Part shown: positions 1,963-36,769 of the stretch, one piece after another
Position numbering within the stretch: the first letter of the stretch is position 1
Layout: each line of letters begins with the position of its first letter
Source of the DNA: Cytophagales bacterium
GTDB lineage: Bacteria > Bacteroidota > Bacteroidia > Cytophagales > Cyclobacteriaceae
Assembly (NCBI GenBank): GCA_017303795.1
Contig: JAFLBR010000008.1
Location: forward strand, 1-64,000
Direction: 5' to 3'
Length of the DNA: 64,000 bases
Translations under genes and position numbers: made by a program
The notes under the pieces: model-generated
What the model saw: the letters and a program-made list of their open reading frames with translations, nothing else
Database searches by the model: none
What the model was told of the DNA's origin: nothing

Positions 1963-2281
1963 AAACGAAAAGAATATTCCTCAAAAATCGGCATTGTTTA
2001 TAGATACAAACTATGACTTTTATCAGTCTATGTTTTATTAAACAGTAGGTAAGCCTTTGCGGGAGGCAATTCAAAAGCAATAGCCTCATGCTCAAGACTA
2101 TTTTTCCTTGTAAGCACTGGCGAATTCCGGACTTGTCAAACCTAAGCTGGTCGGTATTTGTAATGCCGACCCATAGATCTTGAAGATTTTAATCTTCGTT
2201 TGGGTTTCCAATCCCGAACAACAATTTATAAATTATTCTTCCTGACATACACCTGTCATTTCCTTCTTGTAGCTTCGTACA
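1963..2281. other. 319-base intergenic region with small hairpins
   Basis: No gene is visible. It contains a 15-base motif CTGGCGAATTCCGGA (2117-2131), identical to part of the 94-bp repeat unit at 6461-6554. It also contains a hairpin at 2149-2171 with ten-base arms and one G-U pair, and a second at 2182-2197 (GAAGATT, TT, AATCTTC). Near the right edge is the promoter-like TAGCTTCG box before 2282. Confidence 0.5.
2270..2277 (+). promoter_or_regulatory. -7-like box TAGCTTCG
   Basis: One mismatch to TAnnTTTG, four bases before the ATG at 2282. Confidence 0.35.
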
Positions 2282-4931: not shown

Positions 4932-6398
4932 ATGGAACTTGCCCTTGTTTTCCCGCATCAGCTTTATCCACAATCTCCCATTGTGCAGTCAGATCGTACA
5001 GTGGTGCTACTCGAAGACGAGTTATATTTTTCGCAGTATGCTTTTCACAAGCAAAAGTTGGTGCTTCATCGCGCTTCCATGAAAATGTATCAGCAGCATC
5101 TGGAAAGTCAGGGTTTTAAAACACTATATATAGAGGCGAAGCAATCTGGGTTGAGTTCATTGTTTAATAAGTGGCGCAAACAAGGCATTACCGAAATTTA
5201 CTACATCGACACCAACGATTACTTGTTGGAACGCAGGCTGAATCGTTTTGCATTGCAATCGAAAATAAAATTACATCGTGCGCCTTCGCCTAATTTTCTC
5301 ACTTCCGTAGATGAACTCGATCAACTTTTCCCGAAAGGAAAGAAATACCTGATGGCCGATTTTTATATTCGTCAGCGAAAGCGGTTAAATATATTAGTGG
5401 AAGACAACGCACCTGTTGGCGGCCAATGGAGTTTTGATGCGGAGAATCGCAAGCGCATTCCAAAAGGATTGCCGTTGCCCAAAGTGTTTCAACCCAAAAC
5501 AAACCTGTGGGTAACAGAAGCTATACACTACGTTGAAAAAAATTTCAGTAAAAATCCGGGTACTCTTGATTCGTTTCAATACCCTGTAACCTTTGCCGAT
5601 ACTGAAAAAGTGCTGGAAGATTTTTTGATACACCGCATGCGCGATTTTGGTGTGTACGAAGATGCGATTGTAAAAGAGGAATCTATTTTATTTCATTCGG
5701 TGCTTACGCCTGCGCTGAATATCGGGTTGCTTTCGCCTCAACAGATTCTGGATAAAACATTTGAATTCCATCGCAAAGAAAAATTTCCCTTAAACAGTTT
5801 GGAGGGTTTTGTGCGACAGGTTATTGGCTGGCGCGAATTTATGCGTGGGGTTTATTTGCGCGAAGGCGTAAAACAACGCACTACTAATTTCTGGAATTAC
5901 ACACGAAAAATTCCGGCTTCGTTTTATTCCGCAACCACGGGCATCGAACCGATTGATCAAACTATTAAAAAGATTTTACGCACAGGCTACTGCCACCACA
6001 TTGAGCGACTAATGATTCTCGGCAACTTCATGCAATTGTGCTGGTTCGATCCGGATGAAGTATATCGGTGGTTTATGGAATTGTTTATTGATGCGTACGA
6101 CTGGGTAATGGTTACGAATGTGTATGCCATGAGTCAGTATGCCGATGGTGGTTTGATGACAACCAAACCCTACATCTCGGGCAGTAACTATGTGCTTAAA
6201 ATGAGTGACTATAAAAAGGGGCCATGGTGCGAAGTGTGGGATGCGTTGTATTGGTACTACATCGAAAAGAACAGTACTTTGTTTGAACGGAACCCGCGCA
6301 TGAGCATGATGGTGAATCTGGTAAAGAAGATAGATGCTACAAAAATGAAGCAGCATCGTAAGGTGGCGGAAGAGTTTTTGGAAAGTTTGAGGACTTAA
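4932..6398 (+). CDS. cryptochrome/photolyase family protein lacking Fe-S ligands
   Basis: A 488-residue flavoprotein of the photolyase-related PhrB/CryB clade (FeS-BCP). Matching segments are the N-terminal antenna-type domain, GWREFMRGVY (299-308), HHIERLMILGNF (355-366), DAYDWVMVTNVYAMSQYADGG (388-407) and KPYISGSNYVLKMSDY (412-427). Classic members bind a 4Fe-4S cluster through four cysteines, with two in MSDYCxxC. Here the motif reads MSDYKKGPWC (424-433), the following cysteine loop is deleted, and the first ligand position near 342 is not Cys. Flavin binding and light-driven DNA repair, or a light-sensing role, are inferred. Monocistronic. Confidence 0.85.
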   Translation: MELALVFPHQLYPQSPIVQSDRTVVLLEDELYFSQYAFHKQKLVLHRASMKMYQQHLESQGFKTLYIEAKQSGLSSLFNKWRKQGITEIYYIDTNDYLLERRLNRFALQSKIKLHRAPSPNFLTSVDELDQLFPKGKKYLMADFYIRQRKRLNILVEDNAPVGGQWSFDAENRKRIPKGLPLPKVFQPKTNLWVTEAIHYVEKNFSKNPGTLDSFQYPVTFADTEKVLEDFLIHRMRDFGVYEDAIVKEESILFHSVLTPALNIGLLSPQQILDKTFEFHRKEKFPLNSLEGFVRQVIGWREFMRGVYLREGVKQRTTNFWNYTRKIPASFYSATTGIEPIDQTIKKILRTGYCHHIERLMILGNFMQLCWFDPDEVYRWFMELFIDAYDWVMVTNVYAMSQYADGGLMTTKPYISGSNYVLKMSDYKKGPWCEVWDALYWYYIEKNSTLFERNPRMSMMVNLVKKIDATKMKQHRKVAEEFLESLRT

Positions 6399-6460
6399 TA
6401 GCGGTTAACGAGAAGTATAATACATCACTGTGTGCGGTTTACAAATCCATCTATGAAGAG

Positions 6461-6681
6461 TCATTCCGGAGGAGCGTGAGAGTGTGCGATTGAAATTTAA
6501 TTTTTATCAGGCAAACTCTAAATTTATAGAGACTCTGGCGAATTCCGGAATCCCAGCTTAACAAGCACAGGTTTGATATGGAATGCTTTTCACAATTCGT
6601 TTACCAACACTTCATCGGGATCGCGGTATGGTATTGAAGATAAGGACCTACTTTTGAGAACCCGCACCCAACCGCGATGAC
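6461..6681 (+). repeat. 221-bp composite intergenic repeat, copy A
   Basis: Two hairpin units separated by 58 bases: unit 1 at 6461-6554 (94 bp, starts TCATTCCGGAGGAG, ends GCGAATTCCGGAATCCC) and unit 2 at 6613-6681 (starts CATCGGGATCGCGGTA, ends ACCGCGATGA). A second copy with the same order, unit-1 length and spacer length lies in opposite orientation at 36503-36726. Ends are well conserved and middles are diverged. It fills most of the gap between 6398 and the next gene, and nothing else is seen there. Confidence 0.75.
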
Positions 6682-6788
6682 CACTTCGTAGCTTCACCCG
6701 TGACTGTGTCCCCACAGTCCACCTTACCACTTGAACTAACTTTATTACTAACGGCCACAAACGAGCAACCAACAACCAAAAAATTCTT

Positions 6789-16130: not shown

Positions 16131-17504
16131 ATGTACGCCATTGTAGATATTGAAACCACGGGCGGGTACGCAGAAAATCATCGCGTTACCGAAGTGGCCA
16201 TTTATCATTACGATGGTATTCAGGTTACCGATCAGTTTCACACACTCATAAACCCAGGCCGTAAAATTCCGCACTTTATTACGGGCCTTACGGGAATCAC
16301 TTCGCAAATGGTGGAAGAAGCGCCAACGTTTGAAGATGTAGCTGAAGAAATTTTCGACTGGTTAAAAGATCGCGTGTTTGTGGCCCACAATGCACATTTC
16401 GATTACAGCTTTCTTAAAAAAGAATTTGAAGAAGTTGGCATTAACTGGAACACCAAAAAACTTTGCACGGTAAGATTAAGTCGCAAGATTATTCCCGGCC
16501 TTAGTTCGTATAGTCTTGGGCGGTTAGCCGAAAGTCTCGGTATAAAAATTCCGAACCGCCACCGGGCCGGAGGCGATGCATTGGCAACGGCAAAAATTTT
16601 TGATTTGCTGGTGAAGCGCGATAATGCCGGTGTAATTGTAAAAGCATTAAAACGCAACTCGGGCGAAACCATTTTGCCACCCAATCTTCCGAAAGAAGAA
16701 TTTGATAAACTTCCGGCCAAGGCCGGAGTCTATTATTTTCATGATGCGCATGGCACGGTTATTTATGTGGGCAAGGCTATCGACATTAAAAAAAGAATTG
16801 CCGGCCATTTTACAGGCGAAGCGCGCGAGTGGAATCGCTCTAACATTCGCAACGAAATACATCATATCAGCTACGAGCTTACCGGCAACGAGTTGATAGC
16901 TTTGATTCTTGAATCGCAGGAGATAAGAAAAATCTGGCCTAAATATAATCTGGCTCAGAAGTATAAAGTGGAAGAGTGGGGTGTATATGATTATGAAGAT
17001 CGCAACGGCTATTTGCGCTTTGGAATAAACATTGTAACCAAGGGTTCACGACCGCTCATTACGTTTTCATCGAAGGGCGATGCGTGGAATTTTATGTGGG
17101 AAAAAGTGAAGGAGTTTGATCTGTGCCCGAAGCTAAGTGGCTTACAAATTGCCAAAGGGTTGTGCTTCAGTCACCAATCGGGCACTTGTAAAGGCGCTTG
17201 CCAGGAAGTTGAAAAACCGAAGAAGTATAACAAGCGTGCACAAAAATCAATTGAGTCTTTCTTTGAAGGCGGACAAACCGTGGCGTTGGTAGGTAAAGGT
17301 CGCAGGCCCGATGAAAAATCGGTTGTGCTGATAGAGAATGGAAATTATAAAGGCTTTGGTTTTTTTGACGATACCGAAAATCTTTCCAACCTGGATGCAG
17401 CCCGCATGTTTATTAAACCCTCCAAAGACAACCGCGTGGTACAGAATATTGTAAACTCTTATCTCACCAATCCGAAAGGAGTAGAGTTAGTGTTGTTTAA
17501 TTAA
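16131..17504 (+). CDS. DnaQ-like exonuclease fused to GIY-YIG nuclease domain
   Basis: A 457-residue protein. Residues 1-165 form a DEDDh 3'-5' exonuclease (DIETTG with Asp 6 and Glu 8; Asp 91 in AHFDYS; His 144 and Asp 149 in HRAGGD). Residues about 194-275 form a UvrC/Cho-type GIY-YIG nuclease (GVYYF at 199, VIYVG at 210, and the RIAGHF helix). The C-terminal third has a Cys-rich patch (GLCFSHQSGTCKGACQ). The same fusion is known from other bacteria and suggests a role in nucleotide-excision-type DNA repair. SemiSWEET follows but is functionally unrelated. Confidence 0.9.
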   Translation: MYAIVDIETTGGYAENHRVTEVAIYHYDGIQVTDQFHTLINPGRKIPHFITGLTGITSQMVEEAPTFEDVAEEIFDWLKDRVFVAHNAHFDYSFLKKEFEEVGINWNTKKLCTVRLSRKIIPGLSSYSLGRLAESLGIKIPNRHRAGGDALATAKIFDLLVKRDNAGVIVKALKRNSGETILPPNLPKEEFDKLPAKAGVYYFHDAHGTVIYVGKAIDIKKRIAGHFTGEAREWNRSNIRNEIHHISYELTGNELIALILESQEIRKIWPKYNLAQKYKVEEWGVYDYEDRNGYLRFGINIVTKGSRPLITFSSKGDAWNFMWEKVKEFDLCPKLSGLQIAKGLCFSHQSGTCKGACQEVEKPKKYNKRAQKSIESFFEGGQTVALVGKGRRPDEKSVVLIENGNYKGFGFFDDTENLSNLDAARMFIKPSKDNRVVQNIVNSYLTNPKGVELVLFN

Positions 17505-35331: not shown

Positions 35332-35385
35332 AGATTGAAAATCTTCTTTTATCTGTAGCTCGACATCGAAGATGTCGAACAGCTT
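35332..35385. repeat. 54-bp direct repeat, copy 1
   Basis: Contains AGATT-GAA-AATCT and CGACATC-GAA-GATGTCG hairpins. The second copy (36407-36460) differs at two positions. The two copies bracket the hypothetical membrane protein and DoxX genes. Confidence 0.85.
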
Positions 35386-36353: not shown

Positions 36354-36502
36354 TTTAAAAGCAGGTAGATGAAGGGCAAAGATAGGTAAACGAGTAGGTC
36401 ATTAAGAGATTGAAAATCTTCTTTTATCTATAGCTCGACATCGCAGATGTCGAACAGCTTGTTTTCGAGAGGTTGATTAACAAAGATAGGTAAACGAACA
36501 CG
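36354..36502 (-). promoter_or_regulatory. DoxX promoter and duplicated promoter segment
   Basis: The 17-base sequence CAAAGATAGGTAAACGA occurs at 36377-36393 and again at 36481-36497. Read on the minus strand, each contains TATCTTTG. The nearer one is the likely DoxX promoter (ATG at 36353). The farther one may be the promoter of a lost second DoxX gene. The second 54-bp repeat copy lies between them. Confidence 0.55.
36407..36460. repeat. 54-bp direct repeat, copy 2
   Basis: 52 of 54 bases identical to 35332-35385, same orientation. The hairpin CGACATC-GCA-GATGTCG is retained. Confidence 0.85.
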
Positions 36503-36726
36503 TCATCGCGGTCGGGTACTGGGTTATAATTTTGCCGAAGCCTGAAACTCCAAGCCCGTACCGCGATCCCGATGCGGTTACAGATGAAAGAAGTTAAGAA
36601 GCATTTTATAGTAGAATCATCAATAACTCATCGGGATTCCGGAATTCGCTAGAGCAAACATTGAGTTTTTAGTGTAATGATGATGGTTGATTTATTTATG
36701 TAAACTCTCTTGCTCCTCCGGAATGA
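36503..36726 (-). repeat. 224-bp composite intergenic repeat, copy B
   Basis: Reverse-oriented partner of 6461-6681. Unit 2 is at 36503-36574 (72 bp) and unit 1 at 36633-36726 (94 bp), with the same 58-base spacer as copy A. Unit ends are conserved; the middles keep length but little sequence. No coding potential. Confidence 0.75.
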
Positions 36727-36769
36727 CATTTCATAGTATAACGAGTGTTTGACAAAGTCTGCTGAGACC

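Follow-up and report, generated by a model that had tools for sequence, protein, structure and literature searches.

Doublets of GTC-tagged hairpins in a Cytophagales genome and relatives that carry a GIY-YIG nuclease gene

REPs are common bacterial repeats, and those of the GTAG kind have a known enzyme, RAYT. GIY-YIG enzymes, some of them free-standing proteins such as the Seg enzymes of phage T4, are classic homing endonucleases; they hydrolyse DNA without a covalent intermediate and are not known as transposases. REPs with the tag CGTC (or TGTC, CCTC) were described by Di Nocera, De Gregorio and Rocco (2013, PMC3733652), and in the passages of that paper drawn on here they have a stem of 8-9 bp starting with AT, a loop of 4-5 nt and a short tail that is mostly CCA. 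The same passages report that CGTC repeats have no associated transposase genes and that in CGTC-positive species none of the tyrosine transposase genes was flanked by CGTC repeats; the mover was left open, and extinct or borrowed enzymes were suggested. Among the matches listed from open-licence PMC papers, preprints not included, no title or abstract opening linked GIY-YIG enzymes with REPs, and a term search of PMC12306157 met no word beginning with GIY.

Two copies in the window, their family and their sites

The window is the whole stretch of 64,000 nucleotides that was analysed; G000 denotes its source genome, other G numbers denote other genomes, and L numbers denote loci. An earlier note on this DNA had reported a composite element present twice, as copy A (6461-6681) and, reversed, as copy B (36503-36726), and both were found at these coordinates. 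The constant geometry that it described was confirmed, unit 1 being 94 bp and the spacer 58 bp in both copies, and the lengths of unit 2 were 69 bp and 72 bp as given. Its conserved ends corresponded to four exact blocks common to A and B, of 16, 17, 16 and 11 nt (GTCATTCCGGAGGAGC, GCGAATTCCGGAATCCC, CATCGGGATCGCGGTA and ACCGCGATGAC), of which blocks 1-3 lay at the same offsets and block 4 was offset by 4; in the window these blocks occurred exactly at A and B only, the remaining matches being mismatched. The middles, said to have diverged, have done so between A and B but do align family-wide. The extent proposed for the element was slightly too short, as many copies have further nucleotides in common outside both ends: about 8-12 nt (CTATGAAA) ahead of GTCAT, and a TTGTAG-like sequence past ATGAC, were seen in the alignment of many family copies. 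A lone piece of unit 1 reported at 2117-2131 was present but longer, and the 20 nt at 2112-2131, being identical to the matching part of a genomic copy in L033, look like a remnant.

From its end inward, each half reads GTC, an 8-bp arm starting with AT, a loop, an arm ending with AT, and CC-; the two halves face each other across the spacer with the GTC tags outward. The features of the window are as follows.

2112..2131, plus strand: remnant of 20 nt, unit 1 right end, matching the L033 genomic copy exactly
6448..6459, plus strand: 5' flank of copy A, CATCTATGAAGA, probably part of the element; a weaker form is seen in other copies, and identity with the relative G084 ends just ahead of it
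6460..6554, plus strand: copy A unit 1, with GTC, stem ATTCCGGA/TCCGGAAT, 73-nt loop and tail CCC (exact-stem unit finder, alignment)
6555..6612, plus strand: copy A spacer, 58 bp, with a degenerate central hairpin; site of the GIY-YIG gene in gene-bearing relatives (alignment)
6613..6681, minus strand: copy A unit 2, inverted, with stem ATCGCGGT/ACCGCGAT and 43-nt loop (finder, stem covariation)
6679-6681, minus strand: GTC tag of copy A unit 2 (exact-stem unit finder)
36502..36574, plus strand: copy B unit 2, inverted with respect to unit 1, 47-nt loop (exact-stem unit finder)
36575..36632, minus strand: copy B spacer, 58 bp (alignment)
36633..36727, minus strand: copy B unit 1, 73-nt loop; element B lies on the minus strand (exact-stem unit finder)
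36728..36736, minus strand: 5' flank of copy B, CTATGAAAT, with a similar form in other copies (alignment)

The exact-stem unit finder located units in both halves of A and B: unit 1 has the stem ATTCCGGA and a 73-nt loop in both copies, and unit 2, inverted, has the stem ATCGCGGT and a loop of 43 nt (A) or 47 nt (B). A spacer hairpin around CTATGAAA..TTTCATAG is present in many family members and degenerate in A and B. By their sequence, the halves of A and B resemble outsized CGTC-tagged REPs. Comparison of the window with Rfam gave no family at the gathering threshold.

When G000 was searched with blastn, 34 matches were obtained at E <= 1, several of which were pieces of one copy. The exact 16-mer of unit 1 was found in 5 of the 77 genomes searched, namely G000 and four others of the genus. 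A nhmmer profile of 9 copies, run iteratively against 302,630 fetched bases, recovered 52 non-overlapping copies or fragments, 27 of them near full, in five genomes of the genus; the lack of further copies that the earlier note had named as a reason to doubt the element clearly does not apply. Numbers per genome were 20 (G000), 10 (G024), 10 (G032), 7 (G009) and 5 (G008), which are not genome-wide counts because the searched DNA was fetched around known matches. A sixth genome, G084, has at least one family fragment (L207, 3919-4037, E 2e-14) on the opposite side of the photolyase gene. The copies stand singly or in short arrays and, by crude ORF calls, are mostly intergenic, 4 of 52 overlapping a called ORF.

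Several other repeats were noted in the same DNA. The perfect palindrome CCCGATAGCTATCGGG occurs at 17 sites in G000 (e.g. C1:120418, C1:361575 and C10:410; reversed control, 0) and lies within the left arm of unit 1 in some element copies. In L031 (2045-2948), within the spacer region of a decayed array, a segment of some 100-130 bp that contains CGTCTCCCGTTTCGGGGACG and palindromes related to it is repeated three times, so that the element may host a further insertion. The palindromic repeat TCGRCATYTGYNATGYCGA has three matches in the window at <=2 mismatches (2151-2169, 35360-35378 and 36435-36453) against 0.03 expected; as two exact copies adjoin a Y1_Tnp gene in L047 (1876 and 1996), it may be a classical RAYT-associated repeat.

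Orthologous loci were compared for empty sites, as the note had proposed, and A and B were absent from the orthologous gaps examined, an absence that the sequences establish for those sites. G084 and G027 retain the order photolyase - orf202 - TonB receptor with a gap that lacks copy A, and G009 retains photolyase and orf202 with other DNA and no element between them. The profile search detected no copy in the G084 gap or at any of the 25 further photolyase loci (up to 1.5 kb past the gene), of which only a few neighbourhoods were compared. The G084 gap is no clean empty site because its right side has diverged, while its left edge fits the element end. For the gene downstream of copy B an ortholog was present in 5 of the 7 genomes searched, and the fetched locus of none of these five relatives contained a copy. 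A small repeat, TGGACTGTGTCC..ACAGTCCA, is found twice in the G084 gap without element A (L207) and, slightly altered, once directly past A (window ~6700-6725).

A GIY-YIG gene between and inside family copies

Small ORFs were repeatedly found between copies. Three of these, in G024, G008 and G009, encode GIY-YIG nucleases of 108-110 aa and run antisense to the element; the G024 and G008 proteins, whose genes are located between copies, share 81 and 77% identity with the G009 protein. G009 and G034 have one copy each with a 108-aa GIY-YIG gene inside the spacer. In G009 (L077) the 5' half occupies 5382-5514, the antisense gene 5558-5884 and the 3' half 5918-6030, and in G034 an array contains one gene-bearing copy and several gene-less copies with the stems TGCGGG and CGCGGG. 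Three gene-less copies of G034 and two of G009, chosen by the authors, were aligned to the gene-bearing copies; they correspond to the gene-bearing copy minus the gene, the gene site being the spacer and, in G009, the apex of the spacer hairpin. Spacer ends were retained on both sides of the gene in 4 of the 5 gene-less copies, and one copy of G034 had lost more. Stems vary by genome and stay self-complementary (TCCGGA/CGCGGT, TGCGGG/CGCGGG and TCCGGG/GGCGGG), the finder demanding exact stems. The architecture, and the presence of the gene within related copies, are thus established at the level of sequence. Unit 2 of one gene-less copy of G034 (L091, 2098-2127) is, between its arms, the exact reverse complement of those at 1305, 2295 and 2491, a single case of the kind expected if a hairpin is sometimes cut and rejoined flipped.

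The product of the family gene matched Pfam PF01541 (GIY-YIG) with E = 2.9e-15, and the nearest solved chains by sequence were the UPF0213 entries PDB 1zg2 (E 9.4e-5) and 1ywl (E 0.0027). In the best 80 of 522 loci described in the next section, Y6, Y17, G19, R27, E65 and N84 were kept in 80/80 proteins and H31 in 79/80; these are positions that we take to be the active site of GIY-YIG enzymes. The conserved residues are intact.

A search of the genus with the GIY-YIG query P0001 gave a match in 49 of 62 genomes at E <= 0.001 and no match in G000 at E 0.001. Among 30 loci of this search, the exact-stem finder located units in the 7 best and in 0 of the 23 others; an exact unit was also lacking at 17 GIY-YIG genes of the genus that are more distant. 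None of the 8 PF01541 loci of G000 had a GTC-tagged perfect hairpin. One G000 gene, encoding a 92-aa GIY-YIG protein of another subgroup (L032, 5537-5815), lies 135 bp from a copy; it was rejected as the gene of the element on the grounds that it did not match P0001 at E 0.001 and, in locus L201, had no GTC-tagged short-loop hairpin of its own. In L203 (contig G000:C17, 1295-1377 and ~1390-1900), a gene of another GIY-YIG subgroup is situated downstream of a tRNA-Leu gene, between two short stretches that end in GGCCTTAGGTAC like the tRNA end and that each have a CCCGATAG-type palindrome. In the window itself a GIY-YIG domain was detected at 16722-16949 (PF01541, E 1.2e-6) within a 464-aa open frame, which is far longer than the mobile GIY-YIG gene.

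Copies A and B are probably gene-less derivatives of a small mobile element made up of a hairpin, a GIY-YIG gene and an inverted hairpin. The option of a non-autonomous, MITE-like element, one of two raised in the earlier note, is supported by the many copies, their mixed orientation, the absence at examined orthologous sites and the gene-bearing relatives. In its full form the element would consist of a tagged hairpin, a gene for a GIY-YIG endonuclease of about 100 aa and an inverted tagged hairpin, the hairpins being CGTC-REP-like units with the tag GTC, a stem starting with AT and the tail CC-, tags outward. The enzyme would recognise the junction of tag and hairpin, probably with the palindrome extruded in single-stranded or cruciform DNA, and would cut at that junction; repair or replication would then copy the element into new intergenic sites, and gene-less doublets like A and B would have been moved in trans or left behind. 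We infer the enzyme as mover, the cut at the tag and the copying step from these arrangements. The weakest part of the model is the joining step, which would have to come from host repair because GIY-YIG hydrolysis leaves no covalent intermediate.

The main rival is that the doublets came first and were moved by something else, with the GIY-YIG gene homing into tagged hairpins. It would agree with the classic homing role of GIY-YIG enzymes, with the 20 copies or fragments in G000, a genome without a match to the GIY-YIG protein, with the position of the gene within the doublet spacer in two genomes (G009 and G034) and with five Y1_Tnp matches in G000, four of them above the cut-off. Element motifs were, however, absent within about 1.5 kb on each side of all five Y1_Tnp loci, and in several phyla inverted units enclose the gene, the downstream one often lying at the stop codon or a few bp past it, for which one built unit is a better fit than repeated landings. 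We regard homing as unlikely. The lack of element motifs in the fetched flanks of the Y1_Tnp genes of G000 also led to the rejection of a RAYT as the enzyme.

Two further candidates were set aside. An integron-like array of gene cassettes was rejected because the arrays L031 and L032 of G000 sit among ordinary-looking chromosomal genes; the element ends also look unlike attC. Viral carriage was rejected after a search of viral_contigs, in which the exact element pattern had 0 matches and the 134 pattern matches included no confirmed GIY-YIG relative.

GIY-YIG genes and GTC-tagged hairpins across phyla

The collection genome_contigs was scanned with an alignment of six GIY-YIG proteins. The best 80 of 522 confirmed loci, to which the counts in this and the next two paragraphs refer unless another sample is named, came from Bacteroidota, Patescibacteria-type phyla, Chloroflexota, Bacillota, Acidobacteriota, Planctomycetota, Nitrospirota, Cyanobacteriota and others. 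In the 100-bp flanks of the genes, GTCAT was the top enriched 5-mer reading inward (100 occurrences against 15.1 expected). It was present in both flanks of 26/80 genes and of 0/162 ORFs from the same loci (p = 1.3e-14), and in at least one flank of 57/80 genes against 28/162 control ORFs, the flanks of which may be coding. With intergenic flanks only, inward GTCAT was found on 62/123 gene sides against 23/247 control sides (p = 9e-18); 13/51 genes had it on both sides, against 0/78 ORFs (p = 2e-6). Some of the loci are orthologous sites, e.g. three from Kordia, and once 8 loci had been left out because their flanks were homologous to those of another one, the tag was on both sides in 22/72. 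There was no inward GTCAT within 100 bp in 23/80 loci.

Perfect hairpins identified de novo within 200 bp of the gene were preceded by GTC in 39/105 cases, against 2/45 in distant windows. Exact units were located within 400 bp of the gene in 20/80 loci, at a density of 0.787/kb near the gene and 0.030/kb farther off in the same loci, a contrast that is flattering because the far DNA is mostly coding; in intergenic DNA there were 45 units in 47.1 kb near the gene and 10 in 38.2 kb elsewhere, a 3.5-fold excess. CGTC-type REPs are dispersed in these loci regardless of the gene. Permuted tags gave 0 units everywhere, which indicates that tag and stem go together and says nothing on nearness. A control of 27 photolyase loci gave 2 units in 1 locus, which must be L206, the one that contains element A. 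Stems of at least 8 were found in 62/159 cases near the gene and 51/247 control cases (p = 0.002), and the tag-free comparison of folding energy with control gaps, based on 30 single-base shuffles per window, was marginal (p = 0.059).

In 19 loci picked by the authors from the best 80, among them loci of Patescibacteria, Bacillota, Zixibacteria, Planctomycetota, Nitrospirota and other groups, the gene is enclosed by a hairpin and an inverted hairpin. The one downstream often begins at or just past the stop codon; in a few, e.g. L147, the second hairpin has imperfections or could not be seen. A gap recognised by eye as trpB-trpA is filled by a gene-bearing element of the wider family in the flavobacterial loci L163 and L174 and unfilled in Arenibacter L181 (L165 was left out of this comparison), and two Oscillospiraceae loci have gene-bearing elements at different places of one syntenic region. 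A target-site duplication was readable at none of the gaps compared here or above, as the intergenic sequences and flanks have diverged.

Copies of one REP type that occurs next to the gene were counted, at <=1 mismatch, in 10 genomes; 8 had 2-14 copies and 2 had none. Judged by their coordinates, some are the gene-side copies themselves, as both are in the Jejuia genome, and the type is clearly dispersed in the three genomes of Kordia, which have 11, 8 and 3 copies away from the fetched locus. Enzyme distance and stem distance were weakly related (Spearman 0.127 over 58 loci, with 28/2000 permutations as high). In a tree of the GIY-YIG proteins, built on 107 columns and with many open forks, the phyla are interleaved and Bacteroidota needs 7 changes, which is no proof of transfer.

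A second sample consisted of the best 30 loci from 395 Bacteroidota genomes, 166 of which had a match; 28 loci were new, and L254 and L258, seen before, had GTCAT on neither side. Both flanks were tagged in 3/30 genes against 0/26 control ORFs (p = 0.24) and one flank in 10/30 against 6/26; GTCAT occurred 18 times against 8.4 expected, a 2.1-fold excess that ranked 70 of 991. In our judgement many of these flanks look like tagless or decayed palindromes. The flanks of this sample folded more strongly than control gaps did, with a mean z of -1.98 against -0.96 (p = 0.0045), and long perfect stems were not commoner (7/60 against 8/56).

The pairing of this gene with tagged hairpins is non-random, as the sequences of the best 80 loci show. 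It could be indirect if GIY-YIG genes and CGTC-type hairpins both gather in the same permissive gaps, with which the 10 units in 38.2 kb of other gaps in the same loci and the weak second sample would agree. This explanation is very improbable, given the inward tags on both sides of intergenic-flanked genes (13/51 against 0/78), the short distances from gene to tag and the two genomes, differing in their stems, in which the doublet encloses the gene. The points against the model of a GIY-YIG-driven element are the 3/30 of the second sample, an excess of 3.5-fold only, the marginal tag-free folding difference, the 23/80 loci and 17 more distant genes of the genus that lack the tag or an exact unit, respectively, the lack of a P0001 match in G000 and of a tagged perfect hairpin at its PF01541 loci, the lack of a readable target-site duplication, and the fact that GIY-YIG enzymes are not known as transposases.

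Folding and comparison with known systems

Copies A and B each fold strongly. Stem covariation was assessed in 25 of the 27 near-full copies, 2 being left out; the outer stem of unit 1 hardly varies among these and is therefore uninformative, and the stem of unit 2 covaries (T-A 16 / C-G 7; C-G 21 / T-A 3; G-C 22 / C-G 2). Folding scores for loops and spacers omit 9 of 27 copies, which were skipped by the parser. The spacer was more stable than shuffles (mean z -1.41, 18 copies, one spacer mis-cut at 155 nt), and neither loop 1 (mean z -0.77, p = 0.055, 16 copies) nor loop 2 (mean z -0.35, p = 0.25, 17 copies) was clearly so; outside the spacer hairpin and the end stems, the loops had no demonstrable fold in common. 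By crude ORF calls, the upstream neighbour was on the same strand in 21/52 copies, on the opposite strand in 28/52 and not seen in 3/52. An RNA, the second option of the earlier note, has little support because orientation preference and a common loop fold are both lacking. A structured RNA or bidirectional terminator, duplicated around and selected for its ends and geometry, would account for the strong folding of the two copies, the covarying unit 2 stem and the stable spacer, but it is highly improbable in view of the mixed orientation, of loops not clearly beyond shuffles and of gene-bearing copies that interrupt the structure mid-way.

The protein associated with the element belongs to the GIY-YIG class by its PF01541 match and its conserved residues, and its closest solved relatives by sequence, the UPF0213 entries 1zg2 and 1ywl, are hypothetical proteins. 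Like free-standing GIY-YIG homing endonucleases it is encoded by a single small intergenic gene scattered over phyla; what sets it apart is that inverted hairpin ends often flank the gene and that gene-less derivatives occur with it. Compared with MITEs, the element is a non-coding repeat with gene-bearing relatives in G009 and G034, whose enzyme would mobilise it; terminal inverted repeats of 15-30 bp are lacking, the ends having GTCAT in common and then TCCGGA against CGCGGT. With the REPtron or RAYT-REPIN systems it shares a gene between inverted tagged hairpins and dispersed gene-less doublets, and it differs in having a GIY-YIG nuclease and the tag GTC where those have a Y1 HUH transposase and GTAG. 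A Y1 transposase gene flanked by the repeat, as in a RAYT REPtron, was not seen at the five Y1_Tnp matches of G000, the fetched flanks of which had no motif.

With CGTC-tagged REPs, as characterised in the passages of PMC3733652 used here, the window units share a tag ending in GTC, an 8-bp stem from AT, a CC- tail, the arrangement as inverted dimers and the mostly intergenic location, and in many of the 20 exact-unit loci (best 80 of 522) the gene-side units have loops of 4-6 nt and match that description. GTC is present in 4/4 window units, preceded by A and G in copy A and by T and C in copy B, so that 2/4 fit CGTC, TGTC or CCTC. The stems ATTCCGGA and ATCGCGGT are 8 bp and exact in both copies, and the tail is CCC in the window and most of the 27 copies, CCA in 4 and different in others. 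Loops measure 73 and 43-47 nt in the window units and 12 nt in unit 2 of G034, more than the 4-5 nt given in that description; for this reason the window units are not filed as CGTC REPs, although their tag, stem and dimer arrangement belong to that type. The two also differ in that a GIY-YIG gene is associated here, whereas those passages report no transposase.

On balance we lean towards a wider reading, in which CGTC-type REPs across phyla may be the ends and gene-less offspring of an unrecognised class of minimal, nuclease-driven mobile elements (a 'GIY-YIG REPtron') and in which, as part of the same proposal, a GIY-YIG nuclease of about 100 aa, not a Y1 transposase, would recognise the tagged hairpins. 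If this is true, a single nuclease of that size can sustain a population of mobile hairpins. The occurrence of a GIY-YIG gene between such repeats in several phyla makes the question of the CGTC mover directly testable, and the GIY-YIG enzyme is a candidate for this role in CGTC REPs, which the cited passages of 2013 held to be without a dedicated transposase.
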